DNA of 64,000 nt. Origin: Paenirhizobium cremeum. GTDB lineage: Bacteria; Pseudomonadota; Alphaproteobacteria; Rhizobiales; Rhizobiaceae. Position 1 is the stretch's first letter, and every line of letters begins with the position of its first letter. The notes under the pieces were generated by a model. The model was given only the letters and a program-made list of their open reading frames with translations. It searched no databases and was not told the origin of the DNA. Positions 28,452-55,774 of the stretch are shown one piece after another. The stretch lies in NCBI RefSeq assembly GCF_022884085.1, contig NZ_JAGGCS010000016.1, forward strand, positions 1 through 64,000, written 5' to 3'. The position numbers were made by a program, and so were the translations under genes.

Positions 28452-29402
28452 ATGAGCGACATCATCGGCATTACCATGGGCGATCCGGCGGGCGTCGGCC
28501 CGGAGATCAGCCTCAAGGCGCTGGCGGAGATGAGCGAGGCCGACCGTAGCTGCACGCTGATCTATGGCAACCTTGCGACGCTTGAGGCGGCGAAGGCTGC
28601 CATCGGTATCGACGTGGACCTTACGGACCGCGTGGTCGATCTTCCGATCGAAGGCGCTCCGCTTCCCTTTGGCAAACTGTCGGCGGTCGCAGGCGACGCG
28701 GCATTCAGTTTCATCGAAAAGGCCGTCCGCGATGCCGAAGCTGGCAAGATCGGCTGCATCGTCACCGCGCCGATCAACAAGGAAGCCCTGAACGCCGCCG
28801 GGCACCATTATGACGGTCATACCGGCATGCTGCGTCATCTCACCGGTTCCAAGGCCGCCTACATGCTGCTCGCGTCTGATCGGCTGAAGGTCATCCATGT
28901 CTCGACCCATGTCGCGCTCCAGGAGGCGATCCGTCGGTCCACGACGGAACGGGTGCTTGCGACAATTCGTGCCGGCGACGCTCATCTGAAACGCATCGGC
29001 ATCGAAAAGCCACGCATTGCGGTGGCCGGCCTTAACCCTCATTGCGGAGAAAACGGACTGTTCGGCAGCGAAGACGACGAGCAGATCGCACCGGCAGTCG
29101 CTGCCGCCCGCGCCGAGGGCATCGATGCCTATGGCCCGATCTCGGCCGATACCGTGTTCTACAGGGCCTATAGCGGCGCGTTCGATCTCGTGGTCGCCCA
29201 ATATCACGACCAGGGTCACATCCCGATCAAGCTGGTGGCCTTCGACACGGCGGTCAACGTTTCCGTCGAGTTGCCGATTGACCGCACGTCCGTTGACCAC
29301 GGAACGGCTTTCGACATCGCCGGCAAGGGTATCGCCAATCACGGCAACATGAATGCGGCTATCGCCTATGCGCGCAAGCTGGTCGCGGGAGGACGCAAAT
29401 GA
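28452..29402 (+). CDS. pdxA2: PdxA2-type 4-phospho-tetronate 3-dehydrogenase
   Basis: The 316-residue enzyme is of the PdxA family, with [14 protein letters not shown] at the N-terminus and metal/substrate motifs [30 protein letters not shown] and [13 protein letters not shown]. Family members oxidise and decarboxylate 4-phosphorylated four-carbon acids. PdxA proper acts in vitamin B6 synthesis; PdxA2 members acting with a four-carbon acid sugar kinase convert 4-phospho-D-threonate or D-erythronate to dihydroxyacetone phosphate and CO2. The kinase gene at 32254 makes the PdxA2 role far more likely. It starts two bases after the sialidase-like gene and overlaps the aldolase gene by 4 bases. 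Confidence 0.85.
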
Positions 29403-30307
29403 GTTTTTCTATCGAGGGTGTCTATTGTGCTGCGGCGACCCCGCTGAAGCCTGACGGAACACCCGATCTCGAATTGTTCGGTGCGCATGCTCGCGCGTTG
29501 CTCGACGAAGGTTGCCATGGCGTTGCCATGCTCGGTTCGACCGGTGAAGCAAACAGCTTCGGCGTGCGGGAGCGCATGGATCTGGTCGAGGCTGCCCTGA
29601 AGGCAGGCGTGCCTGCCGATGGCCTCTTGCCTGGGACGTCCTCCTGCGCGGTGACGGATGCCGTGGAAATGACGCGCCATGCGGTTCAGGCCGGGGTGCG
29701 CGGCGTCGTCCTGCTGCCACCGTTCTATTATACGGCGTTTTCCGACGAGAGCCTGTTCCGCTTCTATGCCAGTATCATCGAACGGGTGGCGGACGACCGG
29801 CTGAAGGTCATCCTCTACCACATCCCAATGCTGACGGGCGTTCCGATCTCCCACACGCTGATCGCCATGTTGCGCGAAGCCTTCCCCGATACCGTCGTCG
29901 GTATCAAGGACAGCGACGGCAAGATCGAGAACATGCATGCGATCTCGGAGAAATTCCCCGGTTTCGGCGTTTTGGCGGGGGCGGACCCTTTGCTTCTGCC
30001 GGTTCTTGAGCGCGGCGGCGCCGGCTGCATCACGGCGTCCTCCAATCTGGTCGCGAAGGAATTGCGTATCGTCTACGACCACTGGAACGATCCGACCAAG
30101 GCTGACGAGGTGAAGGCAGCGCAGAACGTCATCGTCGCCTGGCGCACACTTACCAATGCCTACGTCCAGCTTCCCACGGTGAAGACCATGCTTGCCCGCC
30201 GGCGCAACGATCTGGGCTGGCTGAATGTCCATCCGCCCTTCTCGCCGCTCTCCGAAGACGAGCAGCAGAAGGTCTGGGCCGAAATGGCTCGCCTCGAAGC
30301 GCTCTGA
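29399..30307 (+). CDS. DapA/NanA-family class I aldolase
   Basis: The 302-residue TIM barrel belongs to the dihydrodipicolinate synthase/N-acetylneuraminate lyase family. Hallmarks are the pyruvate-binding GSTGEANSF, the Tyr of [10 protein letters not shown] and the Schiff-base lysine of [10 protein letters not shown] near residue 165. Non-DapA members in catabolic operons cleave or dehydrate 2-keto-3-deoxy acids, usually releasing pyruvate. The ATGA overlap with pdxA2 and the downstream dehydrogenase show a single operon. The proposed role is cleaving a 2-keto-3-deoxy sugar acid into pyruvate and an aldehyde; the substrate is inferred. Confidence 0.87.
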
Positions 30308-30321
30308 GGGAGGAGGCGGCC

Positions 30322-31443
30322 ATGACGGCAAACCGGATCATTACACTGCACCAGCCGCGCCGGCTGGAAATCGGCGCGGGATCTGCTGCCCGCGTTGGCA
30401 CCTGGGCGAGCGATGCCGGCCGCATCTTCGTGCTTGCGACGCCGTATACGGCGGGTTTTGTCAATCGTCTCGGCCTCAATGGCACGATCACCATTTTCGA
30501 TGCCATTCCCGGCGAACCTGATACTGCGACCTTCGATGCGGCAATGGAGGCGGCTCGCCGCGCCAATCCCGATCTGGTCATCGGTCTTGGCGGCGGCTCC
30601 GTCATGGACGTGGCCAAGCTGGTGGCAGCGCTTTGGGATGGAAGCCAGACGCTTGCCGATGTCGCCGGACCGGACAAGGTCGACGGGCGGCGCACCCGCC
30701 TCGTGCAGATCGCCACGACCGCCGGAACCGGTTCGGAAGCAGGCATTCGCGCATTGATTACCGACCCGGGCAAGGGCAACAAGATTGCGGTCGAAAGCCC
30801 GCACCTGATCGCCGATCTCGCTGTCCTCGATCCGGAACTGACCTACAGTGTGCCGGCGGCGGTCACGGCCGCGACCGGTGTAGACGCCATGGCGCATTGC
30901 GTCGAGGCTTTCACCAACCGCAAGGCTCATCCGGTGATCGACTACTACGCAAGGATCGGTATCGATCTCGTTGGTCGTTATCTGGCCCGCGCCGTCAAGG
31001 ATGGCTCGGATACGGAAGCGCGGGAAGGCATGATGATCGCGTCCTTCTACGGTGGCATCTGCCTCGGGCCGGTCAATACAGCGGCAGGCCATGCGCTCGC
31101 CTATCCTCTTGGCACGCTGCTGCATCTGCCGCACGGACTTGCCAACGCCATCATCTTTCCGCATGTGCTTGCCTATAACGAGCAGGTGGCGCCGGCAAAG
31201 ACGGCCGAAGTCGTATTGGCGCTCGGCATTGCCGATCGGGCGCGGGAGGAAGGTCTTCTGACCGCTGCGCGTGGCTTCTGCGCGGATCTCGGCCTTGAGA
31301 TGCAGCTTTCCCGGCATGGTGCCGGTGAAGAGGATCTGCGGCGATTTGCCGAAGATGCCCATGCCATCCGTCGCCTGATGGACAACAATCCGCGGGACAT
31401 GAGCGTCGAAGACGTGCTCGCAATCTATCGTGCCGCTTTCTGA
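30322..31443 (+). CDS. Iron-containing alcohol dehydrogenase
   Basis: The 373-residue protein is a group III, iron-dependent dehydrogenase. It has the NAD-binding GLGGGSVMDVAKL, the TTAGTGSEAG segment, and metal ligands expected in DLAVLDPE, DAMAHCVEAF, NTAAGHALAYPLG and LPHGLANAIIFPHV. Such enzymes often reduce short sugar aldehydes or acid semialdehydes. It follows the aldolase by 14 bases (ribosome site GGGAGGAGG) and is the last gene before a strong terminator. In this operon it would fit reduction of the aldehyde released by the aldolase. Confidence 0.88.
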   Translation: MTANRIITLHQPRRLEIGAGSAARVGTWASDAGRIFVLATPYTAGFVNRLGLNGTITIFDAIPGEPDTATFDAAMEAARRANPDLVIGLGGGSVMDVAKLVAALWDGSQTLADVAGPDKVDGRRTRLVQIATTAGTGSEAGIRALITDPGKGNKIAVESPHLIADLAVLDPELTYSVPAAVTAATGVDAMAHCVEAFTNRKAHPVIDYYARIGIDLVGRYLARAVKDGSDTEAREGMMIASFYGGICLGPVNTAAGHALAYPLGTLLHLPHGLANAIIFPHVLAYNEQVAPAKTAEVVLALGIADRAREEGLLTAARGFCADLGLEMQLSRHGAGEEDLRRFAEDAHAIRRLMDNNPRDMSVEDVLAIYRAAF

Positions 31444-35611: not shown

Positions 35612-36712
35612 ATGACAGGCATGAGGATTGCCTTTTATGCCCCCCTGAAATCGCCCGACCACCCCGTTCCCTCGGGCGATAGGCTGATGGCGCGCCAACT
35701 CCTGCGTGCGCTGGAGGAGGGCGGAAACGAGGTTACTTTGGCCTCCGGTCTGCGTAGCTTCCATGCCACGCCGGAAACGGTACTCCCGGGGCTGGAGGAA
35801 ACGGCGCAGGCGGAGAGAAAGCGGCTTTCCAGGCTGTGGGAGCAGGATGGCCCGCCGGATCTTTGGTTTTGTTATCATCCCTATTACAAGGCACCGGATC
35901 TCATCGGTCCCGATCTCTGCCGGCGCTTCCGCCTGCCGTATGTCACCGCCGAGGCCTCTTATTCCCATCGCCGAAACCTTGGTTGCTGGACACGCCATCA
36001 GGAGCTGTTGAAGGAAATGGTCAATCTGGCCGGGGTCAACCTTTGTTTCACGGAACGCGATCGGTTGGGCCTTGCGCAAGCGGTACCGGGTGCAAGGCTG
36101 GCGCGCATCGCTCCCTTCATCGATGCTTCGCCCTTTCTTGAGCGGCCTTCCGTTCCGCGACAAAGCCGGCTGGTGACCGTCGCTATGATGCGTCCCGGCG
36201 ACAAGACGGGCAGTTATGTGGCACTCGCCGAAGCGCTGGCCCTGATCGCGGACCTCGACTGGAGCCTCGCAATCGTTGGGGACGGTCCCGAACGGACATC
36301 CGTGGAAGCTCTCTTCTCTGGTTTTGCGCCCGGACGGGTCGAATGGTTCGGTCAGCTCTCACGCGAAGAGGTGGCCGAGGTCCTGTCGGGCGGTTCTATC
36401 TTTGTCTGGCCGGGTCACGGCGAGGCCTATGGGCTTGCCTATCTCGAAGCCCAGGCAGCGGGTCTTCCGGTGGTCGCAGAACGGGTTGCCGGCGTGCCGG
36501 AGGTCGTGGAGCACGGTCGCACCGGCCTGCTCGTACCAGCCGGTGAACCGCAAGCTTTTGCCGATGCGGTCGCTTCGCTGCTTGCCGATGAACCTCGACG
36601 CCGGCTTTTGGCTGAAGCCGCGCGCCGTTTCGTGTCTGAGGAGCGTTCTGTGACGGTCATGGCCGGCCGTCTGTCGGAAGCACTCGTTCCGGCGCTGGAG
36701 TATCCGCTATGA
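35612..36712 (+). CDS. Glycosyltransferase, GT4-like
   Basis: This GT-B glycosyltransferase of about 366 residues has an N-terminal RIAFYAPLKSPDHPVPSGD segment, a linker, and a C-terminal donor-binding part with LAIVGDGPER, VEWFGQLSREEV and the E-x7-E-like HGEAYGLAYLEAQAAGLPVVA. The start is uncertain between ATG 35612 and ATG 35621; neither has a strong ribosome site. It overlaps the deacetylase gene by 4 bases. Donor and acceptor are unknown. Confidence 0.82.
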   Translation: MTGMRIAFYAPLKSPDHPVPSGDRLMARQLLRALEEGGNEVTLASGLRSFHATPETVLPGLEETAQAERKRLSRLWEQDGPPDLWFCYHPYYKAPDLIGPDLCRRFRLPYVTAEASYSHRRNLGCWTRHQELLKEMVNLAGVNLCFTERDRLGLAQAVPGARLARIAPFIDASPFLERPSVPRQSRLVTVAMMRPGDKTGSYVALAEALALIADLDWSLAIVGDGPERTSVEALFSGFAPGRVEWFGQLSREEVAEVLSGGSIFVWPGHGEAYGLAYLEAQAAGLPVVAERVAGVPEVVEHGRTGLLVPAGEPQAFADAVASLLADEPRRRLLAEAARRFVSEERSVTVMAGRLSEALVPALEYPL

Positions 36713-37437
36713 CGAAATCCCGCTTGCTCGAAGCGTTGGATAAGGCAGCGACCGCAGGAAACCGGGTGCAGTTCTGGCTGCGCGACGACGATGCCGTCGA
36801 GCCGACACCCGCGCTCGATAACCTGCTTGCCCTGACGAAGGCATATTCCGTGCCGGTGATGCTTGCCGTCATCCCGGAGGACACCGGAACCTCATTGTCC
36901 GAACGGCTTGCAGATGAGCCGCATGCCAGGGTGGCGGTTCATGGCTGGTCGCATCGCAACTACGCTCCGGCGGGCGAGAAGAAGCAGGAACTCGGACGCC
37001 ATCGTCCCGCAGAGACGGTGCTCGGAGAGTTGCAGGCTGGATTCGCCAAGCTGTCCGCGCTGCATGGGTCGCGCTTCAGGCCGATGCTCGTGCCGCCGTG
37101 GAACCGCATCAACGATGACCTCTTGCCCTCCCTCGGGTCCCTCGGGTTCGCGTCGCTGTCGGTCTTCGGCTTGGAGCGTTCGGCTTCTCCGATTCATCTG
37201 GTCAACACGCATGTCGATCTCATGGACTGGCGCGGGACGCGGGGCTGTCGGCCGGCAGAAGTTCTGTTCGGTGAGCTCGCCGACTGGATCATTCGGGACG
37301 ACCGGCCACCGGTCATCGGGGTGCTCACCCATCATCTCGCGCATGACGAGGCAGTGTGGTCGTTTCTCGACCAGCTTTTCGAGGCAACGAGCCGGCATCC
37401 GGGCTGTGCCTGGATCGATCCCGCTGCTGCCAGTTAA
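36709..37437 (+). CDS. Polysaccharide deacetylase-like (NodB-fold) protein
   Basis: The 242-residue protein shows NodB-fold signs: the metal-binding Asp cluster in WLRDDDAVEPTP near residue 26, the HGWSHRNY histidines near residue 80, VPPWNRINDDLL, and a late THH in GVLTHHLAHDE. There is no signal peptide, so it would act in the cytoplasm, for example on a lipid-linked or nucleotide-linked N-acetyl sugar. The ATGA overlap with the glycosyltransferase gene indicates joint action. Confidence 0.75.
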   Translation: MTKSRLLEALDKAATAGNRVQFWLRDDDAVEPTPALDNLLALTKAYSVPVMLAVIPEDTGTSLSERLADEPHARVAVHGWSHRNYAPAGEKKQELGRHRPAETVLGELQAGFAKLSALHGSRFRPMLVPPWNRINDDLLPSLGSLGFASLSVFGLERSASPIHLVNTHVDLMDWRGTRGCRPAEVLFGELADWIIRDDRPPVIGVLTHHLAHDEAVWSFLDQLFEATSRHPGCAWIDPAAAS

Positions 37438-37440
37438 CGT

Positions 37441-38424
37441 CTACCAGGATTTCCAGGCAATCAGCAGGCCGCCATCCCGGTCGGATGCACTTCGACGGGC
37501 CATCTCCACCGTTTCGAGGGGAGCCTGTCGTGGCAGGCTGGCGGCTACGAAACCGGCTTCCGCAACGCAGACGCTGGTGCCGCGGCAGGCCAGCGAAAAA
37601 ATCAGTGGACCTGTCGACCACCAGGCCGGCGCCTTGGGAAGTCGTTCCATGACGGACGGTATTGTATCGACGATCCGTGAAAAAACCGGGTGTCCTGCCG
37701 GCGCTGCGATGAAGGAATTGGCCAGAAGCAGGCTGCCTGTGCTCGTCTTGCGCGGGATATCCTCGGCCAGCACGGAGATGCCCAAAAGCGGCAGGTAGTC
37801 GCCAAAACTCAGATCGTCACGGGCGGGATACCAGTCGCAGTCGAGATAGATGCCGCCGATTTTCTCCAGGATCATGTAGCGTGCGACATCGACGGCGCCG
37901 GGATAGTCGCCCTGTTTCAGCATGGCGTGAAAGCTCGGATGTTCATCGAAGCCCGCCGCGGCAAGATCGGCTTCCCGCCACAGGCGATATTCCATGCCGT
38001 GAGTCTCGCAGTGCCGCCGCCAGGCCTCCGTTGCGGGCGGTACGGGCAGGGTGCCGAGCCATATCTGATGCAGGACGAGTGGTGTCTTCTCGCCGCCAAG
38101 CCGCGTCATCTTACGGCGCTGGTCGCCGTCGAAGGCGAAGAGGTCTGCGAGCAGGTCCGTCGGCGGCGCCAGCATCGCTTGCAGGCCGGCAATGCGCACA
38201 GGGTCTTTCGCGATCTTGGCAAGCTTAAGATAAGCGGAATGCAGCTTGCGCGGCAGGCCGATCATGGTGGCCGGGCCGAGTTCCGCTGCCTCCAGCAGCG
38301 TTGGGTTGCTTGAAAGCGCATCGAGCGCAAGGCGGGCGCGTTCCAATTCGCCGCTGCGGGCCAGTTCCAGGCTCTCGATGATGGTCTCGCGGGCAAGGCT
38401 TCTGGCGTCGCTTTTGCTGTTCAC
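37441..38424 (-). CDS. GT32-like glycosyltransferase with DXD motif
   Basis: In this 327-residue protein, residues from about 115 on resemble the glycosyltransferase sugar-binding DXD family: PLVLHQIWLGTLPVPP, WREADL, DVARYMILEKIGGIYLDCDWYP (DCD is the DXD motif) and a final ACRGTS region. The N-terminal 110 residues are helical and not recognised. It converges with the deacetylase gene. Donor and acceptor are unknown. Confidence 0.75.
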   Translation of the reverse strand: MNSKSDARSLARETIIESLELARSGELERARLALDALSSNPTLLEAAELGPATMIGLPRKLHSAYLKLAKIAKDPVRIAGLQAMLAPPTDLLADLFAFDGDQRRKMTRLGGEKTPLVLHQIWLGTLPVPPATEAWRRHCETHGMEYRLWREADLAAAGFDEHPSFHAMLKQGDYPGAVDVARYMILEKIGGIYLDCDWYPARDDLSFGDYLPLLGISVLAEDIPRKTSTGSLLLANSFIAAPAGHPVFSRIVDTIPSVMERLPKAPAWWSTGPLIFSLACRGTSVCVAEAGFVAASLPRQAPLETVEMARRSASDRDGGLLIAWKSW

Positions 38425-44643: not shown

Positions 44644-45843
44644 ATGACTGGACAGTCGCGCAAGGCACGAATTCTCATGTACAGTCATGATACATTCGGC
44701 CTTGGGCACCTGCGGCGCTGCCGTACGATTGCCCATTCGCTTGTCGAAGACTATCGCGGCCTGCAGGTGCTGATTATTTCCGGCGCCACGATCGCCGGTG
44801 CCTTCGATTATCGCGCCCGCGTGGATTTCGTGAAGATTCCGAGCGTCATCAAGCTGCGCAACGGCGAATATACGTCGATGGACCAGCACATTGACGTCAA
44901 GGCGACCATCAGGATGCGGCAATCGATCATCCTGCATACCGCCGAGACGTTTCAGCCGGACATCTTCATTATCGACAAGGAGCCTCTTGGGCTGCGTGGC
45001 GAGGTAGAGGAAACGCTGCGCTTTCTGAAGGAACGCGGTACCACGCTGATCCTCGGCCTCCGTGAGGTCATGGATGCCCCGCATCTGCTGGACGCGGAAT
45101 GGAAGCGTAATGACGTGATGCACAAGATCGGCTCGCTCTATGACAACATCTGGGTCTATGGTCCACCGGATTTCTACGATCCACTGACCGGCCTCGATGT
45201 GCCGTCGAGCGTTCGGGAGAAAATGAGCTTTGTTGGTTTTCTGCAACGCAAGGCGTCGGTTGAACGTGAGGAACCTGCCGAGGACTATCTGCTCGTAACG
45301 ACCGGCGGTGGTGGTGACGGGGCCGATTTGGTGCGGGACGTGATCGCGGCCTACCAGGCCGATTCGACGCTCACCCACAAGGCGGTGATTGTGCTCGGTC
45401 CCTATATGCCGGCTGAACAGCGACAGCACTTCGTGGAGCAGGCGGGCAATAACCCTCACCTGGAAATGATCGAATTCGACAACCGGATGGAAGACCGGAT
45501 TGCGGGTGCGAAGGCGGTTGTCGCCATGGGTGGTTACAACACCTACTGCGAAATCCTGTCCTTCGATAAACCGGCTCTGGTGGTTCCGCGTACCCAGCCG
45601 CGGCTGGAACAGTTGATCCGTGCCCGCAGGGCCTCCGAACTCGGCCTCGTCAGCATGCTCTCCGGCCAGGAGGCCTCCGATAGCCTGCGTTTCGCGCAGG
45701 CGATCAAGGACGTGCTGAAACGAGATCCTCCCTCTGCCAGCGCCGCCGGCCTCCACCTTGAGGGATTGCAAACCATCTCGCAGATCGTTGGCGGGTATCT
45801 GAGCGAAGACGCCAGGTCGCCGCGTTTTGCCGCCCAGGGATAA
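44644..45843 (+). CDS. MurG-like GT-B glycosyltransferase
   Basis: The 399-residue protein has the MurG/GT28-like N-terminal motif MYSHDTFGLGHLRRC, an acceptor-side PDIFIIDKEPLGL, and a C-terminal donor domain with VTTGGGGDGADLV and AVVAMGGYNTYCEILSFDKPALVVPR. It is homologous in layout to the protein at 47094-48266. ATG 44644 opens the second half of the + strand run, 65 bases after the importer. Donor and acceptor are unknown; an N-acetyl-hexosamine or uronic acid transfer is plausible. Confidence 0.8.
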   Translation: MTGQSRKARILMYSHDTFGLGHLRRCRTIAHSLVEDYRGLQVLIISGATIAGAFDYRARVDFVKIPSVIKLRNGEYTSMDQHIDVKATIRMRQSIILHTAETFQPDIFIIDKEPLGLRGEVEETLRFLKERGTTLILGLREVMDAPHLLDAEWKRNDVMHKIGSLYDNIWVYGPPDFYDPLTGLDVPSSVREKMSFVGFLQRKASVEREEPAEDYLLVTTGGGGDGADLVRDVIAAYQADSTLTHKAVIVLGPYMPAEQRQHFVEQAGNNPHLEMIEFDNRMEDRIAGAKAVVAMGGYNTYCEILSFDKPALVVPRTQPRLEQLIRARRASELGLVSMLSGQEASDSLRFAQAIKDVLKRDPPSASAAGLHLEGLQTISQIVGGYLSEDARSPRFAAQG

Positions 45844-45846
45844 TTA

Positions 45847-47097
45847 ATGGACAGGACCGGAAAGATTGTCGTCCTCCTGAAGGGCTATCCGCGCCTCTCG
45901 GAGACTTTCATCGCACAGGAACTGCTGGGTCTGGAACGTGCCGGCTTCGAGCTAGAAATCGTCGCCATGCGTCGCCCGACGGACAAGAAGCGTCACCCGG
46001 TGCATGACGAGATCCGCGCCCGCGTCAGCTATCTGCCGGAATACCTGCATGAGGAGCCGCTTCGCGTCCTGAGAGCGTTACGGAAGACGTGCCTTCTGCC
46101 GGGGTTCGGCAAAGCGCTTTCGTCCTTCTGGAAGGATTTGAAACGGGATTTTTCGCGCAACCGGTTTCGCCGCTTCGGTCAGGCGGCGGTGCTCGTTGCG
46201 GAATGGCCGCAGGGAGGCAAATGGCTGCATGCGCATTTCATCCATACGCCCGCGTCGGTCGCGCGCTACGCCAGCGAGATCAGCGGTATCCCGTGGTCGA
46301 TTTCCGCTCACGCCAAGGACATCTGGACTTCCGAGGACTGGGATCTGGCAGAAAAGCTCCAGAGCGCCGACTGGGGCGTGACCTGCACGCGGGTGGGCTA
46401 TGAAAAGCTGTCATCGCTTTCAGGTGGACGCGATGTCATGCATCTCAGCTATCACGGTCTCGACCTCGAGCGGTTCCCGCACTTCGACGGTCAGCGGCCT
46501 CGCCGTGACGGATCCGATCCAACTGATCCTCTCCGTGTGTTGAGCGTTGGCCGCGCCGTCAAGAAGAAGGGTTATGACGTGCTGCTGAAGGCGTTCGCCA
46601 GGCTTCCGGCGAACCTTCACTGGCAGTTTATTCACATTGGCGGTGGCGATGAACTGGACAGTCTGAAGACGCTCGCCGGCGAACTTGGCATTTCCGACCG
46701 GATTGTCTGGAAGGGCTCGATGGACCAGCGCGATGTGCTCGCTCATTATCGCGATAGCGATCTCTTCGCGCTCGCCTGCCGGATTACAGCGGATGGTGAC
46801 CGCGACGGTCTGCCGAACGTCCTCGTCGAGGCGGCAAGCCAGCGGCTCGTGGCCGTCTCCACGACCGTTTCAGGCATCTCGGAACTGTTTGTCGACGGCG
46901 AAAACGCATTGCTGGTCGAGCCCGAAGACGCGGAGGCTCTCGCGATCGCACTGCAGCGCGTGATGACCGATCCCGATCTGCGGGAGAGGCTCGGAGCCGC
47001 TGCTGAGGCGAGGGTGCGGAAGGACTTCGACCACCATAACAGTATTCACGATCTTGACCGGCTCTTTACAGAAGCGTGGGAGAGGAGAGGGATTTGA
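45847..47097 (+). CDS. Group 4 glycosyltransferase
   Basis: The 416-residue GT-B protein opens with VVLLKGYPRLSETFIAQEL, a pattern typical of colanic-acid-type GT4 enzymes. It continues with ISAHAKDIWTSEDW and a C-terminal donor domain with LSVGRAVKKKGYDVLLKAF, WKGSMDQRDVLAHY and DGLPNVLVEAASQ. It lies three bases after the MurG-like gene and its stop overlaps the probable TTG start of the next gene. Confidence 0.86.
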   Translation: MDRTGKIVVLLKGYPRLSETFIAQELLGLERAGFELEIVAMRRPTDKKRHPVHDEIRARVSYLPEYLHEEPLRVLRALRKTCLLPGFGKALSSFWKDLKRDFSRNRFRRFGQAAVLVAEWPQGGKWLHAHFIHTPASVARYASEISGIPWSISAHAKDIWTSEDWDLAEKLQSADWGVTCTRVGYEKLSSLSGGRDVMHLSYHGLDLERFPHFDGQRPRRDGSDPTDPLRVLSVGRAVKKKGYDVLLKAFARLPANLHWQFIHIGGGDELDSLKTLAGELGISDRIVWKGSMDQRDVLAHYRDSDLFALACRITADGDRDGLPNVLVEAASQRLVAVSTTVSGISELFVDGENALLVEPEDAEALAIALQRVMTDPDLRERLGAAAEARVRKDFDHHNSIHDLDRLFTEAWERRGI

Positions 47098-48266
47098 GTA
47101 CGCCGCAAGCGTCCCCCTCGAAGAGAAGGGTTCTTTTCTATGTCCAGCACCTGCTCGGTATCGGGCATCTGGCGCGTGCCAGCCGGATCGCTGAGGCTCT
47201 GGTCGAGGCCGGATTCTCGGTGACGCTGGTGACAGGCGGGGCGACTGTGAACGGTTTTCCGGGAAAGGGCGTCGAACACGTCCAGCTTCCGGCCGTCGTT
47301 GCGGCCAAGAGCGGATTCTCAAGCCTTGCCGATATTGAGGGTAATCCTGTCGATACGGACTTCGAGCAGAGACGGACGGCTATTCTTCTTGAGACTTTTG
47401 CGAGAGTCGAACCGCATGTCGTCATCATAGAGGCTTTCCCCTTCGGCCGACGTCAGATGCGCTTCGAGCTTCTGCCCTTGCTCGAGGCCATCGAGAATGC
47501 CAACAACCGTCCGCTGCTCTTCAGCTCGATCAGGGACATCCTGCAGGAGAACCGCAAGCCTGGGCGAGACCGCGAGACTGCCGATCTCGTCGCCCGTTAT
47601 TTCGACGGTATCCTCGTGCATGGTGATCCGCATTTCGTGCGGCTCGAAGAGACGTTCCCGCTCGCAGGTGAGCTTGCGGACAAGATTCATTACACCGGCC
47701 TTGTTGCGCCGGTTGAAGCTCCGCCATCCGCTGATCGTTTTGGCGTGGTGATTTCCGCCGGCGGTGGTGCCGTGGGTGGAGCGCTGATCGAGGCTGCACT
47801 CGACGCCCGCGATATTCTCGATGATCGCGAGGAATGGTGTGTGATTACCGGTCCCAACTTGGCGCAGGCGGATTACGATCGTTTCGCGGCCCGCGTTTCG
47901 AGCGGTGTTTCCCTCTTTCGCTTTCGTCCGGACTTCCCGAGCCTCTTGCCGCAGGCCGGCCTGTCGATTTCCCAAGCGGGCTACAACACGGTCTGCGATC
48001 TCTTGCGGGCGCGTTGCCGCGCCCTGTTCGTACCCTTTGCTGCCGGTGGTGAGACAGAGCAATCGGTGAGGGCCGAAAAGCTGGTCGCGCTGGGCCTGGC
48101 GAAGGTCGTCACCGAGCAAGGTCTGACTGGGACGGCGATGGCCGAGGCAATCACCGCCGCACGCGAGCTCAGTTTCCCGCCGGAGCTTCCGATTTCACTT
48201 GACGGCGCCGCCGGAACGGCCCGGGTGATTGCGGGAATGCTTGGCGCTCAGCCCTATCGGGGCTGA
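47094..48266 (+). CDS. MurG-like GT-B glycosyltransferase, second copy
   Basis: This protein of about 390 residues shares its layout with 44644-45843: FYVQHLLGIGHLARASRIAEAL at the N-terminus, VVIIEAFPFGRRQ in the middle and SISQAGYNTVCDLLRARCRALFVP in the donor domain. The likely start is TTG 47094, overlapping the upstream TGA (TTGA) with AGGAG about six bases before; a GTG at 47076 is the alternative. The pair flanking a GT4 enzyme suggests successive sugar additions in one repeat unit. Confidence 0.8.
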   Translation: MSTPQASPSKRRVLFYVQHLLGIGHLARASRIAEALVEAGFSVTLVTGGATVNGFPGKGVEHVQLPAVVAAKSGFSSLADIEGNPVDTDFEQRRTAILLETFARVEPHVVIIEAFPFGRRQMRFELLPLLEAIENANNRPLLFSSIRDILQENRKPGRDRETADLVARYFDGILVHGDPHFVRLEETFPLAGELADKIHYTGLVAPVEAPPSADRFGVVISAGGGAVGGALIEAALDARDILDDREEWCVITGPNLAQADYDRFAARVSSGVSLFRFRPDFPSLLPQAGLSISQAGYNTVCDLLRARCRALFVPFAAGGETEQSVRAEKLVALGLAKVVTEQGLTGTAMAEAITAARELSFPPELPISLDGAAGTARVIAGMLGAQPYRG

Positions 48267-48277
48267 GACCTCGCGAC

Positions 48278-49246
48278 TTACTGCAGGACAGAACAGGCCT
48301 TCGAGTCTTCCAGCACATCGATGCAATCGGGAGAGCGCCGGAAATCGTCATAATAGACGGTCCATATATCCTCAGCTCCGGCCCGGTAGGGGCCGAATTT
48401 GAAATACTGATTCTTTCCGAGGCCGGTATCGCCGTGGCCCACGTGTCCCTTCACAGTGGCGACCCAGACGCGGTTGGCGAAGATTTCGATTCGGCCGTCT
48501 CCATTAGGGTCCGGACGGGAGAAAATCGCAAAGTCGATCCAGTCCGTTGATGCTTTGGGTAGCGGATTGTGCTGCACGACGGAAATCTTGTCCGTGCAGG
48601 ATGGGAATGTAGCAGCATCCTCGGCGCTCCAGTCGGGGCCTGAAGCGGCAAGGGCGCGCATCTGGTTGACTTCAGGGCGAAACCAGACGGGTGTGCTGCC
48701 TTCCGGGCAACGACCGGCAACGCCATCGATCGGCTGAGGGCCACCTTCGACATAATTGGTTTCCACCGAGAAGAACATCTTGCCACGGTCGAGCCGGAGC
48801 GCGAGGAAGGGGCTGAAATCCCCCTCGGCCTCAGGCCCGATTTCCCGTTTCCACTGGGCCATCAGGTAGCGATGGTCGTCCTGTGGAACGGGATCGGCAA
48901 GTTTCATGGCGAAACCGAACCAGACCGGTTCGTCATAGGGGACGCGCAGCGGGGTCTTTTCCCAGATCTCGGCGCGTTCACTGCACAGATCGTCGGTGGC
49001 CGGACATTGGCTCCGCACGCTGAGTTTCAGCGCGCCTGCGCCGTTACGTTTAACCTCGCTCTGAAACACATAGCTGCCAGCTTTCTGCTCCTCGTTCATG
49101 CGGTAGTAAAGTCCGCCTTCGGGGGAAAAGTCCTGGCCGTCGAAACCGTCGAACAATTTCTGGCTGGTCGGCCTATTGCCGAGCGCCGGTGCTGCAATAA
49201 AACAGCCGGCAAGAAGAGCAATGCCCAAAAGACGATAGGGTTTCAA
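48278..49246 (-). CDS. Secreted polysaccharide lyase-like protein
   Basis: This protein of about 322 residues begins with a signal peptide (LLGIALLAGCFIAAPALG). The mature part resembles the heparin-lyase-like jelly-roll family of bacterial polysaccharide lyases (PF14099 type): SERAEIWEK, PVWFGFAMKLAD, RYLMAQWKRE, a WIDFAIFSRPDPNGDGRIEI strand and KGHVGHG followed by YFKFGPYRAG. Likely start is TTG 49246, with GGGAGGA six bases upstream; the frame extends further without a ribosome site. It converges with the glycosyltransferase operon and may trim or recycle the polysaccharide made here. Confidence 0.75.
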   Translation of the reverse strand: MKPYRLLGIALLAGCFIAAPALGNRPTSQKLFDGFDGQDFSPEGGLYYRMNEEQKAGSYVFQSEVKRNGAGALKLSVRSQCPATDDLCSERAEIWEKTPLRVPYDEPVWFGFAMKLADPVPQDDHRYLMAQWKREIGPEAEGDFSPFLALRLDRGKMFFSVETNYVEGGPQPIDGVAGRCPEGSTPVWFRPEVNQMRALAASGPDWSAEDAATFPSCTDKISVVQHNPLPKASTDWIDFAIFSRPDPNGDGRIEIFANRVWVATVKGHVGHGDTGLGKNQYFKFGPYRAGAEDIWTVYYDDFRRSPDCIDVLEDSKACSVLQ

Positions 49247-49414
49247 CGATATCCTCCCGTTGCATATGCGAATGGCTGGTGACGGCTTTCTGCAGTCTAG
49301 ATTTACCTTCACAGAATGTCGCAGGCTAGTAGGCAGAAGACGGAGCGGGTCAATTCCTCGCGAGGAGATCCCTGCCGTTTTCCGGTTCCTCGGAAAGAGA
49401 GGCGCGCGTCGAGA

Positions 49415-51118
49415 TCAAGCGTAGCGTCTGGCGTCCTCTGTCGAGAGCAGATAGACACGCATGTCCGTCCGGCGCCCCTTCAGCGAGACGGAGCGGTTGG
49501 AAAGCCCGTCATAGGGCAGGTGAGCAAGCAGCATGATGGGTTCGGACGCGGCAATCGCGACGTTGAACTGCTTTGCGACCGCCTCGAGCCGGCTTGCCAC
49601 GTTGACGGTGTCGCCGATCGCGGTGAGGCCCGACACCTTGCCGTAACCGATCACGCCGACGATCGCAGGGCCGAAGTGAATGCCGATTGCGATCCTGAGG
49701 TCGACACCGAATTCCTGCATCATTTCCTGGTTGAGCTTCTCTGTCTCCGCGACGATCGTTGCTGCAGCTTTCAGCGCCTGTCGGCACGCCTCGCTCGGTT
49801 CGGTGGCATCGATACCGAAGAGCGCCATCACGCCGTCGCCGATGAACTTGTCCACCTGTCCCTTGGCTTCTTCTACCGCTCGACCGACGACCGCGAAATA
49901 ACGGTTCAGAAGGAAGACGATGTCATAGGGCAGCCTGCTTTCCGAGATGGTGGTGAAATTGCGGATATCGCAGAAAAGCACGACGATTTCCTTTTCCCGG
50001 CCGGCTTGTCTAAGCGGCCTGGCGGAATAGACATCGCCGCCGGCCGGCGGCTCCAGCAATAGTGCGACGGTCAGGTCGTAATCAGGCCGGGTCTGGCAGC
50101 TCAGCCGCGTATCGGGGGCCGCTCGGATTCGCGATAACGTCGCCTGTTCCATGGCGGTTGCGGGTGGCAGCGGACCGGCACTGTCGACGATGCGTACACG
50201 ACAGGTCGAACAGCGTCCTTTGCCGCCGCAGATCGAATAGTGATCGATCCGGCCGATCCGGCTGGCTTCAAGGATCGAGGTTCCCCGCGGCACGCGGACC
50301 TGTGCACCATGTGCGTAGGTAATGCTGATTTCGGGGACGTTGCGACGCAATGAACGGACGGAGCGCAGCATCACGACAAGTCCCAGCCCCAGACCGAAGA
50401 CGACATAGATGCGTTGTTCGATCTCAGCGAGGTCGAGTTGGGGTCTCGCGGCCTGCAGTCGCAACATCTCGGTGCCCGGGCCGGATGATTGAACAGATCC
50501 CCTGGTCGTGGCCGAAGCCTCCATCTGTCGGCCGCTGGTCAGTATGCCAATGAGCGCAAGCGTCGGCAGCAGGATCGCGAATGCGAAGAGCCACTGCGAC
50601 ACACGCGGAAACCACTCCCTGAAGCGAAGGGCGGCATAGAGGCCGATGCAGCCGTGCACCCAGACCACGATGACGGCCACAGCCATTTTCAGTCCGAACA
50701 GACCGCTGCCGTTCCATATGGCTCTTATGACGCTCTCATAGGTGCTGTCGAAGCCCCCATAGAGGGCGGGTACCCGCGCGGAGACGACATGTTGGGCGAT
50801 GAGTACGGGGATGGAAAGGCCAAAGATGACCTGGATCATCATGCGGGCGGGCAGGCGCATGTGCCGACGCAGGTAAAGTGTTCGAAGCGCGAGCAGGAAA
50901 TGGACCAGAAACGAGCCGTACAGGAGGAGGGTTCCGAGCGGATTGCGCCAGAGGATCTTGAAGATCTTCAGGACCTCGTCAGCAAAGGCAATCGATACCA
51001 GTGTCAGCGCGTGATTGAGAAGATGCGTTGAAATGAACGCAAAGAGGATCACTCCGGATGCGATACCCAGTTGATGTGCGGCCTTGTCTGGCAAGAAAGG
51101 GCGTGCAGGCTGCAGCAT
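49415..51118 (-). CDS. Membrane [2Fe-2S] ferredoxin-adenylate/guanylate cyclase fusion
   Basis: This three-part protein has about 567 residues. Residues about 15-255 hold five to six membrane helices. Next comes a [2Fe-2S] domain with CGGKGRCSTC (CX5CX2C) and a distant SCQ cysteine. The C-terminal class III nucleotide cyclase domain (about 385 on) has VVLFCDIRNFT, KFIGDGVMALFG and AIGDTVNVASRLEA, so the metal-binding aspartates and transition-state residues are present. It should make a cyclic nucleotide in response to redox state. ATG 51118 is chosen because the homologous part begins just after it; upstream ATGs at 51166 and 51250 are open and no ribosome site is strong. Confidence 0.83.
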   Translation of the reverse strand: MLQPARPFLPDKAAHQLGIASGVILFAFISTHLLNHALTLVSIAFADEVLKIFKILWRNPLGTLLLYGSFLVHFLLALRTLYLRRHMRLPARMMIQVIFGLSIPVLIAQHVVSARVPALYGGFDSTYESVIRAIWNGSGLFGLKMAVAVIVVWVHGCIGLYAALRFREWFPRVSQWLFAFAILLPTLALIGILTSGRQMEASATTRGSVQSSGPGTEMLRLQAARPQLDLAEIEQRIYVVFGLGLGLVVMLRSVRSLRRNVPEISITYAHGAQVRVPRGTSILEASRIGRIDHYSICGGKGRCSTCRVRIVDSAGPLPPATAMEQATLSRIRAAPDTRLSCQTRPDYDLTVALLLEPPAGGDVYSARPLRQAGREKEIVVLFCDIRNFTTISESRLPYDIVFLLNRYFAVVGRAVEEAKGQVDKFIGDGVMALFGIDATEPSEACRQALKAAATIVAETEKLNQEMMQEFGVDLRIAIGIHFGPAIVGVIGYGKVSGLTAIGDTVNVASRLEAVAKQFNVAIAASEPIMLLAHLPYDGLSNRSVSLKGRRTDMRVYLLSTEDARRYA

Positions 51119-51402
51119 CAAGAGCGACCCTGTGGGAATGAACGCGGCGCAGTGCCTCTGGGGCATGAAAGCGGCCAAAAAGAGGCCCCACCATTCTGCA
51201 GCGTCGGCGTTAAAATTCCACCTTTGTTTGGATGTCGTCGCATGGACCAACCGGAAAACGAATGGTCGCGCGGGGCGTCCCGTCAGTGGTCCGGTTCATA
51301 GAGGGAATTATGGATCAAGGAAATCGACAATCGCCAAAGTATGCGACTCGATCGTCACCTGAGACACATTTACGGCGCGAGTGTAGCTCGGAACCGCTGG
51401 CT
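51119..51402. other. Gap between the cyclase and cyclic-nucleotide-binding genes
   Basis: About 280 bases without a supported gene; part may encode an N-terminal extension of the cyclase if it starts upstream. No clear promoter, hairpin or repeat was recognised. Confidence 0.4.
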
Positions 51403-51861
51403 TCAGGCGTATTCCTCGTGGCTCTTCTGGGCCGCAAGCTCTGATGTCGTTGTCTGGAGACGGGTGGCGAGCACACGCATCACGCCAAGCATCATCGACG
51501 GGCAATCGGCCATCAGCTTGCGGAAAGCCTCCTTGCTGATGCGCAAGGTGTCCATTGGCGTGCTTGCCCGGACGGTAGCAGTGCGGTAGCCGTCGCAGAG
51601 TATAGCGATTTCGCCGACGATGGAGTTCTTTCCGGCCTCTGCAACCTTGATCTCGCCGGCCGGAGTATCCACGACTATATCCGCGGTACCCCCGAGGATA
51701 ACAAAGGCGGAATCGCCTACATCGCCCTCATGGAACAATTCCTGACCCGGCGCGAATTTCATACGGTCGGATGTAAAAGCCAGCAACTTCAGCTTGGCCG
51801 GATCCGCAGACGCGAAGAACGGCAGGGCACGCAGGCATTGAACCTCATCCATAAGGACCAT
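51403..51861 (-). CDS. Single-domain cyclic-nucleotide-binding protein
   Basis: The 152-residue protein is a lone cNMP-binding (CAP-family) domain without the DNA-binding helix-turn-helix. The phosphate-binding cassette is intact: VGEIAILCDGYRTATVRA, with the Glu and Arg that hold the ribose and cyclic phosphate. GQELFHEGDVGDSAFVILGG is the preceding barrel. Lying between a cyclase gene and an ABC exporter-like gene on the same strand (41 bases after the latter), it is probably the receiver of the cyclase signal, acting by protein contact rather than on DNA. Confidence 0.85.
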   Translation of the reverse strand: MVLMDEVQCLRALPFFASADPAKLKLLAFTSDRMKFAPGQELFHEGDVGDSAFVILGGTADIVVDTPAGEIKVAEAGKNSIVGEIAILCDGYRTATVRASTPMDTLRISKEAFRKLMADCPSMMLGVMRVLATRLQTTTSELAAQKSHEEYA

Positions 51862-51902
51862 CGCATACCTCCAAACTGAGCCGGAGAGGGTCTCTCCTGA
51901 AA

Positions 51903-54626
51903 CTACCTCGTTACCAGCTCTTTCACCATACCGTTTTCTTCCACCAGAGTCTCGTAGGTTCCATCAGCGACCAGCCCGCCTTTGTCGAATACCATGATCC
52001 GTTCGAAGAGCTTGCACAGCCGCGGATTGGATAGAACCCATATAATAGTGCACTTTTCGGACTTGCTGCGCAAGAAGGAGATGACATTCTTCACCAACTG
52101 GGTCTGCAGGCGCGGATTAAGGCCGGGCAGCGGCTGGTTGAGGATGCAATATTCCGTACCGCGGATCAGCGCGCGCGCAACGTTGAGCTTCTGGCGCTGC
52201 AGCAGCGTCAGCCGCTTGCCGCCCGGACCAAGATCGTAATCGAGGCCGATTGCCAGCATTTCCGTATACACTCCCTCCTTCTCGGCCAGTTGCCTGATCA
52301 ATGGGGCGATGCGGTTTTGGGCATCCGCATGGCCGCGGCTGATCTTGCCGAATAGAATGTTCTCGATCAACGAGGACGATGGCTGGAACTTGTCGGATTC
52401 GTAACGCGCAATGAGACCTCCGAGTTCCGCCGGAAGATTGGCATGGAACTTCTGGCGCGCGGCCACGATCTTGTGCATGATTTCATCGGTCAGCAGGCCG
52501 AAGCGATAGCGGCTTTCAACGTAGGCGAAGGCGGTCAGGAAGATGACACGACGCTGCTCGTCGTTCGTTTCGTCGATGCCCCGCCCCTCGATCTCTTTCA
52601 GGATGCGGGCGTAATCGGGGATTTCATGACCTTCCATGAAGGGAAGTTCGGGCAATAGCGGGTTGTTCTGCTGCATGTCGCCGAACAGTTCAACGATTGT
52701 GCTCGCGACCGAACGCCCCATTTCAAACAGTAGATCGGCCAATCCGTCCTGCCGGATAACCGACCGGAAGTAGTTGCTGGCAATGATCCGCTGGGCCGCG
52801 GTTTCTCCGCCGACAAGAGACCCGAACAGCAGGTTTTCGGCTACGGTCGCCTCGGTATTGTAAGCCTCGAAATCGAAGGGTACGACGAGTTCCGGCAGGT
52901 TGAGGCTGGCCAGTTCGTCGCGCAATGTCTGTCGGGCAGCGATGGCGAAGCGGGCTATATCCTCGTTCGTTTGCGGATCGACCGGGCTGCGCAAGGCGAG
53001 GTCGAGAACGTCTTCGGTGAGCAACACGGTGTCGAGAACGCCGAGCATCCAGGCGTCGAGCGTTTCCCTAGTTATGGCATTGTCTGGCGCCGCCCCGGTG
53101 CTGATCCACTCGCCTTCAATATCGAAATCGACGTTTCCGGCCAGCCGGGCTTCCTTGATTTCCCATTTTCGTCGGATAGCCGCGTTGCCTTCCCTCTCCA
53201 TAGGCTGCAGCGGGGCGTGTTTCAGGCCGTAAAGCAGGTTGTCTTTCAGGCTCCCATGGAAAAAATAGGTTTCCGCCGAGACATAGCTGATGCGGCGACC
53301 AGTGATGGATTCCGGCAGGTCGCGAATGTCGATATCGCCTGCGGCGACCCTGCCGGCGCTCGGCCAGACCGCGCGACCTATGGCATCGGCGATGAGGCTG
53401 CCGGCGCTGCCGTTTGCATCGAGGAACGCAATGGTCTGGCCAGGCTCGACATGCAGGGAGACGTGGTCGACCATACGGCCGCCGCTGTCGTCGTCTATCG
53501 CGAGATTGACGGCGGCGAGGGGGCCGGGCAGCGGTGCGGGTACGCCGGTGTAGATAGACTGGATTTCCGGCTGAAGTATGCTGTCGGACTGGAACTGCTC
53601 GACCACCTGCTCGAACTTTACCTGCACATCCTGCCGCGCCTGATCCCAGTCGATCAGATCCTTGAGCGGGCTCGGCAACTCCTTGTAAGCGTTGATGACG
53701 GCGACCAGCTGGCCAACGTCGAGATTGCCGCGCAGGGTCAAATAGCCGCCGATACTGTAGAAGAGGAACGGCGTGACCTGGGCCAGGAAGTTGTTGATGA
53801 ACTTCACCATGAACTTCCATTGGTAGAGATCGTAGCGGATCGCGAAGATCTCCCCCAGCCGACGGGCCATGTCGGCGCGCTCGTAGTTTGAAGTATCATA
53901 GGCATGGATCGTCGGCATGCCCTCGACCATTTCGCTTACCCGACCTGCAAGCCGACGTGCGGTGATCTGCCGTTCCCGACCGAGACGGATCAGTCGTCGA
54001 CGCATTCTGGGAATGATCCCTATCTGCAGAAGCGCCATGAAGGCTGCTATCAGACCGAGCCAGAAGTTCTGCGCCAGGATGAACGACAGCGCTGCGATCA
54101 CCTGACCGCCAAGCAATGCCGGCTGAACGAAGGAATCGCCGGCAAAGCCGCCCAGCGGCTCCACCTCGTCTTTAATCATGCTGGCGATTTCCGCGCCCTT
54201 GGTTCGTTTGAAGTAGGCCGGCGGGAAACGGAGAAGGTGGTCGATGAGCTGGAAACGGATGCGACGCAGCAACCGCTCGCCCAGGCGGCCTTTGTAGGTA
54301 TTGATGACATATTTGAAGGCGTTGTTGATAACAACCAGCGCCAGGAACTCGACACTGAGCGCCATCAGCATGGACAGGCGATCGAGCGGATATCCCGCGT
54401 AGATCTGCACATAGCCGACGAGCGGCATGTCGAAGCCGAGTTCGAAAAAAGGCTGCAAGGCTTCCGGCGTCGAAAAACCCTCACCCTGGATGGGGCCGTT
54501 GATGATCTGCTTGGGCAGATCCAGCGATATGAAATACGGGATCATCGACAAAGCGACGATCATGAGAATGATGACTTGCTGACGCCAGGTGTGCTTCCAG
54601 ATGTAGCGGGAAAGACTTTTTTCCAT
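51903..54626 (-). CDS. Very large ABC exporter-like protein with degenerate ATPase motifs
   Basis: The protein has about 907 residues. Residues 15-330 are an exporter-type six-helix membrane domain (LGERLLRRIRFQLIDHLL, RRLAGRVSEMVEGMPTI). The nucleotide-binding part (about 370-907) is twice normal size and altered: Walker A reads LDANGSAGS near 403 without Lys, the signature reads LGPGGKRLTLLQRQ near 800, Walker B reads CILNQP near 828 without Asp/Glu, and the switch His is lost (WVLSNPR). The motif N-L/I-L-Y/F-G that normally follows the Q-loop occurs three times, at about 463, 598 and 756. ATP hydrolysis is doubtful. ATG 54626 precedes the conserved EKSLSRYIWKHTWRQQ. Confidence 0.82.
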   Translation of the reverse strand: MEKSLSRYIWKHTWRQQVIILMIVALSMIPYFISLDLPKQIINGPIQGEGFSTPEALQPFFELGFDMPLVGYVQIYAGYPLDRLSMLMALSVEFLALVVINNAFKYVINTYKGRLGERLLRRIRFQLIDHLLRFPPAYFKRTKGAEIASMIKDEVEPLGGFAGDSFVQPALLGGQVIAALSFILAQNFWLGLIAAFMALLQIGIIPRMRRRLIRLGRERQITARRLAGRVSEMVEGMPTIHAYDTSNYERADMARRLGEIFAIRYDLYQWKFMVKFINNFLAQVTPFLFYSIGGYLTLRGNLDVGQLVAVINAYKELPSPLKDLIDWDQARQDVQVKFEQVVEQFQSDSILQPEIQSIYTGVPAPLPGPLAAVNLAIDDDSGGRMVDHVSLHVEPGQTIAFLDANGSAGSLIADAIGRAVWPSAGRVAAGDIDIRDLPESITGRRISYVSAETYFFHGSLKDNLLYGLKHAPLQPMEREGNAAIRRKWEIKEARLAGNVDFDIEGEWISTGAAPDNAITRETLDAWMLGVLDTVLLTEDVLDLALRSPVDPQTNEDIARFAIAARQTLRDELASLNLPELVVPFDFEAYNTEATVAENLLFGSLVGGETAAQRIIASNYFRSVIRQDGLADLLFEMGRSVASTIVELFGDMQQNNPLLPELPFMEGHEIPDYARILKEIEGRGIDETNDEQRRVIFLTAFAYVESRYRFGLLTDEIMHKIVAARQKFHANLPAELGGLIARYESDKFQPSSSLIENILFGKISRGHADAQNRIAPLIRQLAEKEGVYTEMLAIGLDYDLGPGGKRLTLLQRQKLNVARALIRGTEYCILNQPLPGLNPRLQTQLVKNVISFLRSKSEKCTIIWVLSNPRLCKLFERIMVFDKGGLVADGTYETLVEENGMVKELVTR

Positions 54627-54727
54627 GGGGCGGGACTGGCCTGATCGAGCACAAATCGGATTTTTAGCCCCGTACTTATGTATTGTCAAAAGCCGCTGCA
54701 AGCGGCTCGCCGGCATATGTCGGGGGA

Positions 54728-55774
54728 TCAGGAGACTGCGCTAGTGACGAGTTTTTGCGGCGCCTCTTCCCGTTTCCACGTCTTGTACCATTCGACGAAT
54801 TCGAGAACGCCGCGTTCGACGGGCATCTGCGGTACGAAGCCCGTCAGCGCCTGAAGGAGATCGGGAAGTGCGTAGGTGCGCGGCACGTCGCCCTTCTGCA
54901 TCGGCAACATGCGACGAATGGCCGGTTGTCCGATAGCGGCCTCGACCGTTTCCACGAAGCGGATCAGTTCCACCGGCTGGCCGCCGCCGATGTTGACGAT
55001 GCGGAAAGGGGCATGCCGGGAAAGTGTATCTTCCACTCCGGGCGCCGCGACACGGTTTTCCTCATCCGGAACGACAGCGATCAACCGTATGATAGCTTCC
55101 ACCAGATCGTCGATATAGGTGAAGTCGCGGCTCATCTTCCCTTCGCCGTAAATATCCACGGGACGGCCGTTGAGTATGGCGTCGGTGAATTTGAAAAGGG
55201 CCATGTCGGGGCGTCCCCATGGACCGTACACGGTGAAGAAACGGAAAGCGGTGGTCGGTATCTTGTAAAGATGGGCATAGGAATGGCCCATGGCCTCCAT
55301 CGCCTTCTTGGTCGCGGCATAAAGCGTGAGCGGCTCGTCGGCATGGTCGGTTTCGGCGAATGGCACCTTCTCGTTCGCGCCATAGATCGAGGAACTGGAG
55401 GCGAGCAGGAGATGCTTCGGCCCGATGCGTTTCGCCAGTTCCAGCACGGTCCAGGAGCCGGTGAGATTGGAGGTTACATAGGCCTGCGGATTTTCGAGGC
55501 TGTAGCGCACGCCGGCCTGGGCCGCGAGATGAACGATCGCGTCGGGTTGTTCTATGGCGGCTGCGCGGTCGAGCGCTGCCGTATCCTCGAGCATGCCGAT
55601 GATCGGATCGAAATTCGGATAGCTTTCGAGGATTCCATGACGCCGACGTTTCAGGGAGACGTCGTAATAAGGTGTCATGCCGTCGAAGCCGGTCACGCTG
55701 TGGCCGGCCTCCAGAAGCCTTCGGGCCAGATGAAAGCCGATGAAGCCTGCCGTCCCGGTAATCAGATAACGCAT
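54728..55774 (-). CDS. NAD-dependent epimerase, UDP-glucuronate 4-epimerase type
   Basis: The 348-residue short-chain dehydrogenase has [19 protein letters not shown] at the N-terminus, the [17 protein letters not shown] segment characteristic of UDP-glucuronate epimerases, [11 protein letters not shown], the catalytic Ser region ([15 protein letters not shown]) and YAATKKAME (Tyr-x3-Lys). It would turn UDP-GlcA into UDP-GalA for the polysaccharide. It lies about 100 bases upstream of the large ABC protein gene on the same strand. Confidence 0.87.

Follow-up and report, generated by a model that had tools for sequence, protein, structure and literature searches.

An Exporter-Shaped Protein with a Cyclic-Nucleotide-Binding Partner in Alphaproteobacteria Suggests a Transporter Under cAMP Control and Not Driven by ATP

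Analyses of the window (the whole stretch of DNA studied here, 64,000 nucleotides) and of related loci in alphaproteobacteria identified an exporter-shaped ABC protein whose ATPase motifs have been lost (pseudo-ABC) and which is accompanied by a small cNMP-binding protein (CNB). The best-supported interpretation of these data is that CNB would be a dedicated subunit of the ATP-dead ABC protein, and the pair suggests a transporter that is under cAMP control and not ATP-driven. This interpretation draws on features legible in the sequences themselves: the anatomy of the proteins, the loss of the ATPase motifs, the constant linkage and repeated fusion of CNB, an enrichment of cyclases nearby and a neighborhood of glycosyltransferases. 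We lean, with some reserve, toward the view that the pair acts as a cAMP-controlled membrane module of a cell-surface polysaccharide machine.

The Three Genes of the Window

The genome to which the window belongs is 5.33 Mb in 34 contigs, with the window on contig 8. Of the named organisms, Ciceribacter sichuanensis and Rhizobium daejeonense are the closest to it, with 88% identity between their ABC proteins and that of the window. The genes for the ABC protein, CNB and a membrane cyclase are all open reading frames on the minus strand at 49415-54716 (Table 1). The first-pass annotation had described an ABC exporter-like protein, a lone cNMP-binding protein and a [2Fe-2S] membrane cyclase encoded on one strand; its coordinates were confirmed and the Pfam domains agree with it. 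The likely start of pseudo-ABC is Met31 (54626), which is the start in most aligned relatives, and the conserved start of the cyclase is probably Met45 (51118), as in the related locus L004. Scans for promoters and terminators gave numbers at the level of shuffled sequence (2 versus 2.5 and 5 versus 6.0, respectively).

Table 1. Features of the cassette and its immediate neighbors in the window.
Feature	Coordinates	Strand	Basis
Pseudo-ABC exporter gene, 937 aa longest frame	51903..54716	-	PF00664 and part of PF00005; type IV exporter fold
Pseudo-ABC transmembrane domain (TMD), residues 34-375	53592..54617	-	PF00664 at 120-341; helices in model
Former Walker A DANGSAGS, residues 433-440, without Lys or following Ser/Thr	53397..53420	-	Motif alignment
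Three-copy Q-loop/ENLLFG/helical segment, residues 470-600, 600-760, 760-835	52212..53309	-	hhalign
Former Walker B end, residues 860-861, Asn-Gln replacing Asp-Glu	52134..52139	-	Alignment, 161 relatives
Lone cyclic-nucleotide-binding protein CNB, 152 aa	51403..51861	-	PF00027 only
CNB phosphate-binding cassette, residues 83-97	51571..51615	-	Conserved Gly, Glu, Arg
Short gap, site of MBL-fold gene in close relatives	51251..51402	-	Comparison with L004, L008
CyaC-like membrane cyclase	49415..51250	-	PF00111 and PF00211
Cyclase six-helix membrane anchor, five invariant His	50345..51088	-	Model; 27/27 CyaC-type proteins
Cyclase [2Fe-2S] ferredoxin domain, four Cys	50084..50305	-	PF00111; Cys in 27/27
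Class III adenylate cyclase catalytic domain	49442..50002	-	PF00211; S. platensis CyaC structural match
Polysaccharide lyase, downstream neighbor	48278..49312	-	PF14099
NAD-dependent sugar epimerase/dehydratase, upstream neighbor	54728..55774	-	PF01370
Three glycosyltransferase genes: GT28-like, GT4-like, GT28-like	44644..48266	+	Domain matches; recur beside cassette

Linkage of CNB to the ABC Gene

ABC matches of at least 400 bits were present in 92 of the 297 genomes of the order, the window genome counted, and from the 91 others 67 genomes were picked, giving an order set of 74 loci (73 stretches and the window). Seven of 80 stretches (L176-L182) were left out as scoring below 650 bits to the ABC profile, as were L001-L003 and L084-L103, 16 of the latter group repeating the window or later stretches. 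The close set was the best 80 of 197 relatives, some of whose loci stop at contig ends, and the set from outside the order comprised all 12 loci of nine genomes of the same class. Neighboring genes were identified by profile searches. In a scan of the phylum, 21 of 299 genomes had an ABC match at E<=1e-50, all of them the window's own or from the same family, order or class.

Pfam searches identified only PF00027 (cNMP_binding) in the 152 residues of CNB. The absence of a C-terminal HTH ruled out that CNB is an ordinary transcription regulator of the CRP/FNR type. The binding cassette is intact in the window (G83-E84 ... R93-T94-A95), and in an alignment of 153 of 154 CNB relatives (the CNB of L135 was not entered) the Gly was conserved in 152, the Glu in 148 and the Arg in 150.

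CNB accompanied the ABC gene at all 74 loci of the order, all 80 close relatives and all 12 loci from outside the order. By a strict rule it lay directly after the ABC gene at 64 of the order loci and was fused to it at eight, and it was visible in the gene strings of the remaining two; outside the order, six of the 12 loci had CNB and ABC in one ORF. CNB also adjoined ABC in uncounted short stretches from other genomes (L086, L090, L091 and L092), and no strong CNB match was present beside the ABC match in the low-scoring L176-L182 (best 71 bits, L177). On a TMD tree of 93 rows, built by a quick method and with some long branches, the fused state needed four changes, two of them forced by branches with at least 95% support. 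The constant presence of CNB and its repeated fusion into one ORF make direct coupling between CNB and the ABC protein likely, and in this respect the earlier proposal of a link between the receiver and the ABC protein was strongly supported.

The two proteins also occurred together across the 297 genomes, of which 88 had both, four had ABC only, five had CNB only and 200 had neither, at cut-offs of 400 bits (ABC) and 88 bits (CNB) that were set after the match lists had been inspected. This co-occurrence ruled out a chance neighborhood of ABC and CNB. Among the genomes scored as ABC only, the proteins of G032 and G072 were fused and matched CNB less strongly, and G287 had a weak CNB match, the fourth genome being G279. 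The CNB-only genome G114 had a partial ABC match adjoining CNB at a contig end, and G117, G174, G196 and G272 had a CNB relative with no ABC gene within about 8 kb.

Cyclases Near the ABC Gene

Within the order, a class III cyclase of any type was in the flank of 51 of the 74 loci and absent from that of 23; the cyclase was of the CyaC type at 17 loci, and at 40 a class III cyclase was on the same strand at most 3.5 kb downstream. The corresponding numbers for the close set were 48 of 80 with any class III cyclase, 32 with none, ten of the CyaC type and four on the same strand at most 3.5 kb downstream. In 42 of the 67 genomes, which held 555 cyclases in 204.5 Mb, a class III cyclase was near ABC in 30 versus 1.8 expected, with a naive P of 4e-34 that uses rounded genome sizes and ignores kinship, making an accidental neighborhood within the order unlikely. 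In addition, among the 15 genomes whose cyclases number at most six, 12 have retained one near ABC. Outside the order a cyclase was near ABC at only one of 12 loci (L192). As both the presence and the type of the cyclase vary, ABC-CNB is the core, to which a cyclase is often added within the order as a partner that can be exchanged. A fixed trio with CyaC was ruled out, other class III cyclases replacing the CyaC type; thus, of the trio whose conservation the first-pass annotation had put forward for checking, the ABC-CNB pair was constant and CyaC was present at 17 of 74 and ten of 80 loci.

A further gene, of the metallo-beta-lactamase (MBL) fold, was found at 36 of 74 order loci and 72 of 80 close loci, mostly adjoining CNB. 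Between CNB and the cyclase it is intact in L004 (13340-14224) and broken by stops in L008, and an MBL-fold query that matched six of six control genomes had no match in the window genome. The MBL protein resembles both RNase Z and MBL-fold cyclic-nucleotide phosphodiesterase (presumably of the Rv1339 type) in that it matched both models and HxHxDH was kept in 108 of 108 MBL-fold proteins, but its scores were far under the curated cut-offs of both (47.4 versus 400 bits for NF041851; 79.9 versus 293 bits for TIGR02651). The window genome retains the trio and has lost this putative eraser gene, judged by its phosphodiesterase likeness, so that the trio seen as a unit lacks its usual fourth gene.

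The cyclase of the window gave Pfam matches to Fer2 (PF00111) and Guanylate_cyc (PF00211). Its anchor appears as six long helices in a model of middling quality (pLDDT 74.7, pTM 0.48). In a fold search directed at the anchor, with succinate dehydrogenase anchors as a candidate match, the matches listed were catalytic domains of cyclases; with a Z of 26.2, S. platensis CyaC resembles the catalytic domain of the window protein. All 27 CyaC-type proteins of these loci had the same five His, four Cys and two metal-binding Asp. The window cyclase carries D384, K424, D428, T499, N506 and R510 (numbered from Met45); among the 27 proteins K424 was kept in 20, T499 in 21, N506 in 20 and R510 in 25, and adenine or transition-state residues were changed in seven. 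One clade (L135, L137-L140, L145 and L147) had altered cyclase residues with invariant His and Cys, and its members may be redox-type anchors with dead catalytic domains. The RTA motif of CNB was also altered at six loci of this clade, all those where CNB could be read, whereas 19 of the 20 intact CyaC-type cyclases were beside a CNB with RTA and one beside a CNB with RNS. The joint alteration comes from one clade and may reflect a single event.

The ligand of CNB would likely be cAMP, often made next door. We regard it as unlikely that the CNB-ABC pair is real and has another ligand, such as ppGpp, with the nearby cyclases serving other receivers. The precedent for such a ligand is HetC of Nostoc PCC 7120, whose CNB domain bound ppGpp while cAMP was without effect, as given in the available part of the report (PMC10986499), and because of it the ligand of CNB should not be taken for granted. 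A flank with no cyclase at 23 of 74, 32 of 80 and 11 of 12 loci and the variable cyclase type would also fit. Against this reading are the cyclase enrichment, the retention of the cassette Glu and Arg, and the clade in which cyclase and CNB motifs were altered together.

Loss of ATPase Motifs in a Whole Exporter Fold

Analyses of the ABC protein by Pfam identified ABC_membrane and a piece of ABC_tran. The window protein has DANGSAGS at the site of Walker A and ILNQ at the end of Walker B, and the sequence of its H-loop region, WVLSNP, contains no His. The canonical Walker A GxxxxGK[ST] was lost in 160 of 161 aligned relatives and kept in place in one (L169), and the Walker B end was Asn-Arg in 99 and Asn-Gln in six of the 161. 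The decay of the motifs is graded, since an LSGGQ-like signature was kept in ten of the 161, some of them distant members, and an acidic Walker-B-like pattern was present somewhere in the protein in 23. Sequencing error as the cause of the dead nucleotide-binding domain (NBD) was ruled out, the changes being common to many genomes. The NBD of pseudo-ABC thus seems incapable of the usual ATP hydrolysis; "catalytically altered", as the protein had been described, was an understatement, as the Walker A, Walker B and H-loop residues are all lost.

The fold of the protein is whole in the predicted structure (modeled with 31 sequences; pLDDT 76.3, pTM 0.68), which fold comparison identified as a type IV exporter with both TMD and NBD present. 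Model residues 394-936 could be aligned to the ComA NBD over its full 239 residues (Z 28.2, rmsd 2.2), indicating that the NBD has a complete fold, interrupted by an insert of about 300 residues. Comparison of profiles with hhalign indicated that the insert consists of two extra copies of the protein's own helical segment, with E values of 1.5e-14 (copies 2 and 3), 4.3e-8 (1 and 3) and 4.6e-6 (1 and 2).

Two relatives, L169 and L199, are fused ABC-CNB proteins with an intact Walker A, together with an Asp-Glu Walker B in L199; they are possible intermediates with a working ATPase and make the loss of the ATPase motifs testable. The ABC-like proteins of L176-L180 are divergent, with matches mostly to the insert region in the middle, and likewise lack the Walker A Lys.

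More doubtful than a different ligand is that pseudo-ABC pairs, as a heterodimer, with an intact ABC half whose gene lies elsewhere, in which case CNB would tune an exporter that is otherwise ATP-driven. Heterodimeric exporters of which one site is degenerate are common, and their fold is the same; the LSGGQ-like signature of some distant members is compatible with such pairing. However, no intact exporter half was noticed recurring in the gene neighborhoods, and the fused members are likewise mostly without Walker A.

Glycan-Related Neighbors

Both GT28 genes were present at 45 of 74 order loci and 69 of 80 close loci. Two GT4 genes, a UDP-sugar dehydrogenase, a lyase and a protein with a borderline match to polysaccharide deacetylase also recurred. 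These glycosyltransferase and sugar-gene neighbors point to a cassette tied to a cell-surface glycan. The setting among polysaccharide genes that the first-pass annotation had described recurs in that glycosyltransferases are frequent neighbors; the polysaccharide machine is a candidate effector by virtue of the same neighbors.

Several further genes were observed. In the window, 36709-37437 is a conserved neighbor of about 240 aa with the borderline deacetylase match, 37441-38424 encodes a small glycosyltransferase with a DXD sugar-binding region (PF04488) that adjoins the second GT4, and 29366-31362 contains two genes (321 and 400 aa) near polysaccharide genes and without a Pfam match. In Mesorhizobium loci (e.g., L044:16153-17391) the cassette is repeatedly accompanied by a DUF3095 gene, which was present at 41 of 80 close loci; fold search with it gave no solved relative.

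Least probable of the readings considered is a reverse flow of information, with pseudo-ABC as a sensor or scaffold in the membrane (for a lipid-linked glycan or the glycosyltransferases) and CNB as a reporter or buffer of cAMP. In its favor, the protein retains no ATP motor, a motorless conserved exporter shape could serve as receptor or scaffold and glycosyltransferases recur beside it, but sensing by the ABC part found no support here and CNB domains usually receive signals.

A Model for the Cassette

In the cAMP-controlled module that we favor, a CyaC-like cyclase with a diheme-type anchor, a [2Fe-2S] domain and a class III domain would convert the respiratory redox state to cAMP. CNB would bind the cyclic nucleotide and act directly on the ABC protein as a bound subunit. 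Because the NBD apparently cannot carry out the usual hydrolysis of ATP, the liganded CNB, and not ATP, would set the conformation of the ABC protein, and pseudo-ABC would serve a machine for cell-surface polysaccharide as a gated or a regulatory component. We infer the binding of cAMP, the contact of CNB with ABC in the unfused state, the redox input and the output. Bacterial cAMP is known mainly via DNA-binding receptors. As CNB is a receptor free of a DNA-binding part and is linked and fused to a membrane protein, cAMP would here act directly on membrane machinery.

A bolder and more tentative speculation is that these proteins represent an exporter lineage with a swapped input, in which the NBD lost hydrolysis, copied its helical subdomain and came to be gated by a cAMP receptor with a dedicated respiration-sensing cyclase. 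If this speculation is correct, cyclic nucleotides would gate these proteins, whether as exporters or as channels, and bacteria would in principle have an analogue of CFTR or SUR. The cassette also raises the question of what role an exporter has that is conserved but lacks an ATP motor.

Comparison with Known Systems

The type IV heterodimers with a degenerate site, TM287/288 and TmrAB, share their overall fold with pseudo-ABC. They differ from it in that pseudo-ABC has lost Walker A and has an NBD insert of about 300 residues derived from its own helical segment; to our knowledge, the degenerate halves of known heterodimeric ABC exporters keep Walker A.

CyaC of Sinorhizobium meliloti contains a [2Fe-2S] cluster, and its biochemistry was reportedly the subject of a 2019 study. 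In the part of the published report available, this protein (SMc01818) was two-heme and redox- and quinone-responsive, and variants were made with K410, T484, N491 and R495 changed (Klein et al. 2023, PMC10463352). Like the window cyclase, it has six-helix membrane and class III catalytic domains, and the spacing of K424/T499/N506/R510 in the window (75, 7, 4) is close to that of K410/T484/N491/R495 (74, 7, 4), a likeness judged from the residues and spacing published for S. meliloti CyaC and not implying orthology. By this homology the role of redox sensor proposed for the window cyclase is supported, with the published redox and quinone response as its model. According to the same partial source, S. 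meliloti CyaC is encoded next to the TetR regulator CycR and acts together with the CRP-like, DNA-binding Clr, whereas the window cyclase adjoins pseudo-ABC and a CNB without a DNA-binding part. The source also gives 28 adenylate cyclases in S. meliloti, feeding largely undefined chains (PMC10463352), and the cassette gives some cyclases in the relatives of this bacterium a defined output.

HetC, as described in the accessible part of its report, resembles the pseudo-ABC/CNB pair in being an ABC exporter with a CNB domain, which is needed for function in HetC; this CNB domain is N-terminal, and HetC also has a C39 peptidase domain, an essential ATPase residue (E970) and ppGpp as ligand (PMC10986499). 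In contrast, CNB in the window is encoded by a separate gene (a C-terminal fusion in relatives), the ATPase motifs are lost and Pfam identified no peptidase domain in the ABC protein. The cassette was not described in the literature searched, in which subscription journals were thinly covered. HetC and CyaC are the closest precedents: the parts are known, and their combination appears to be new.
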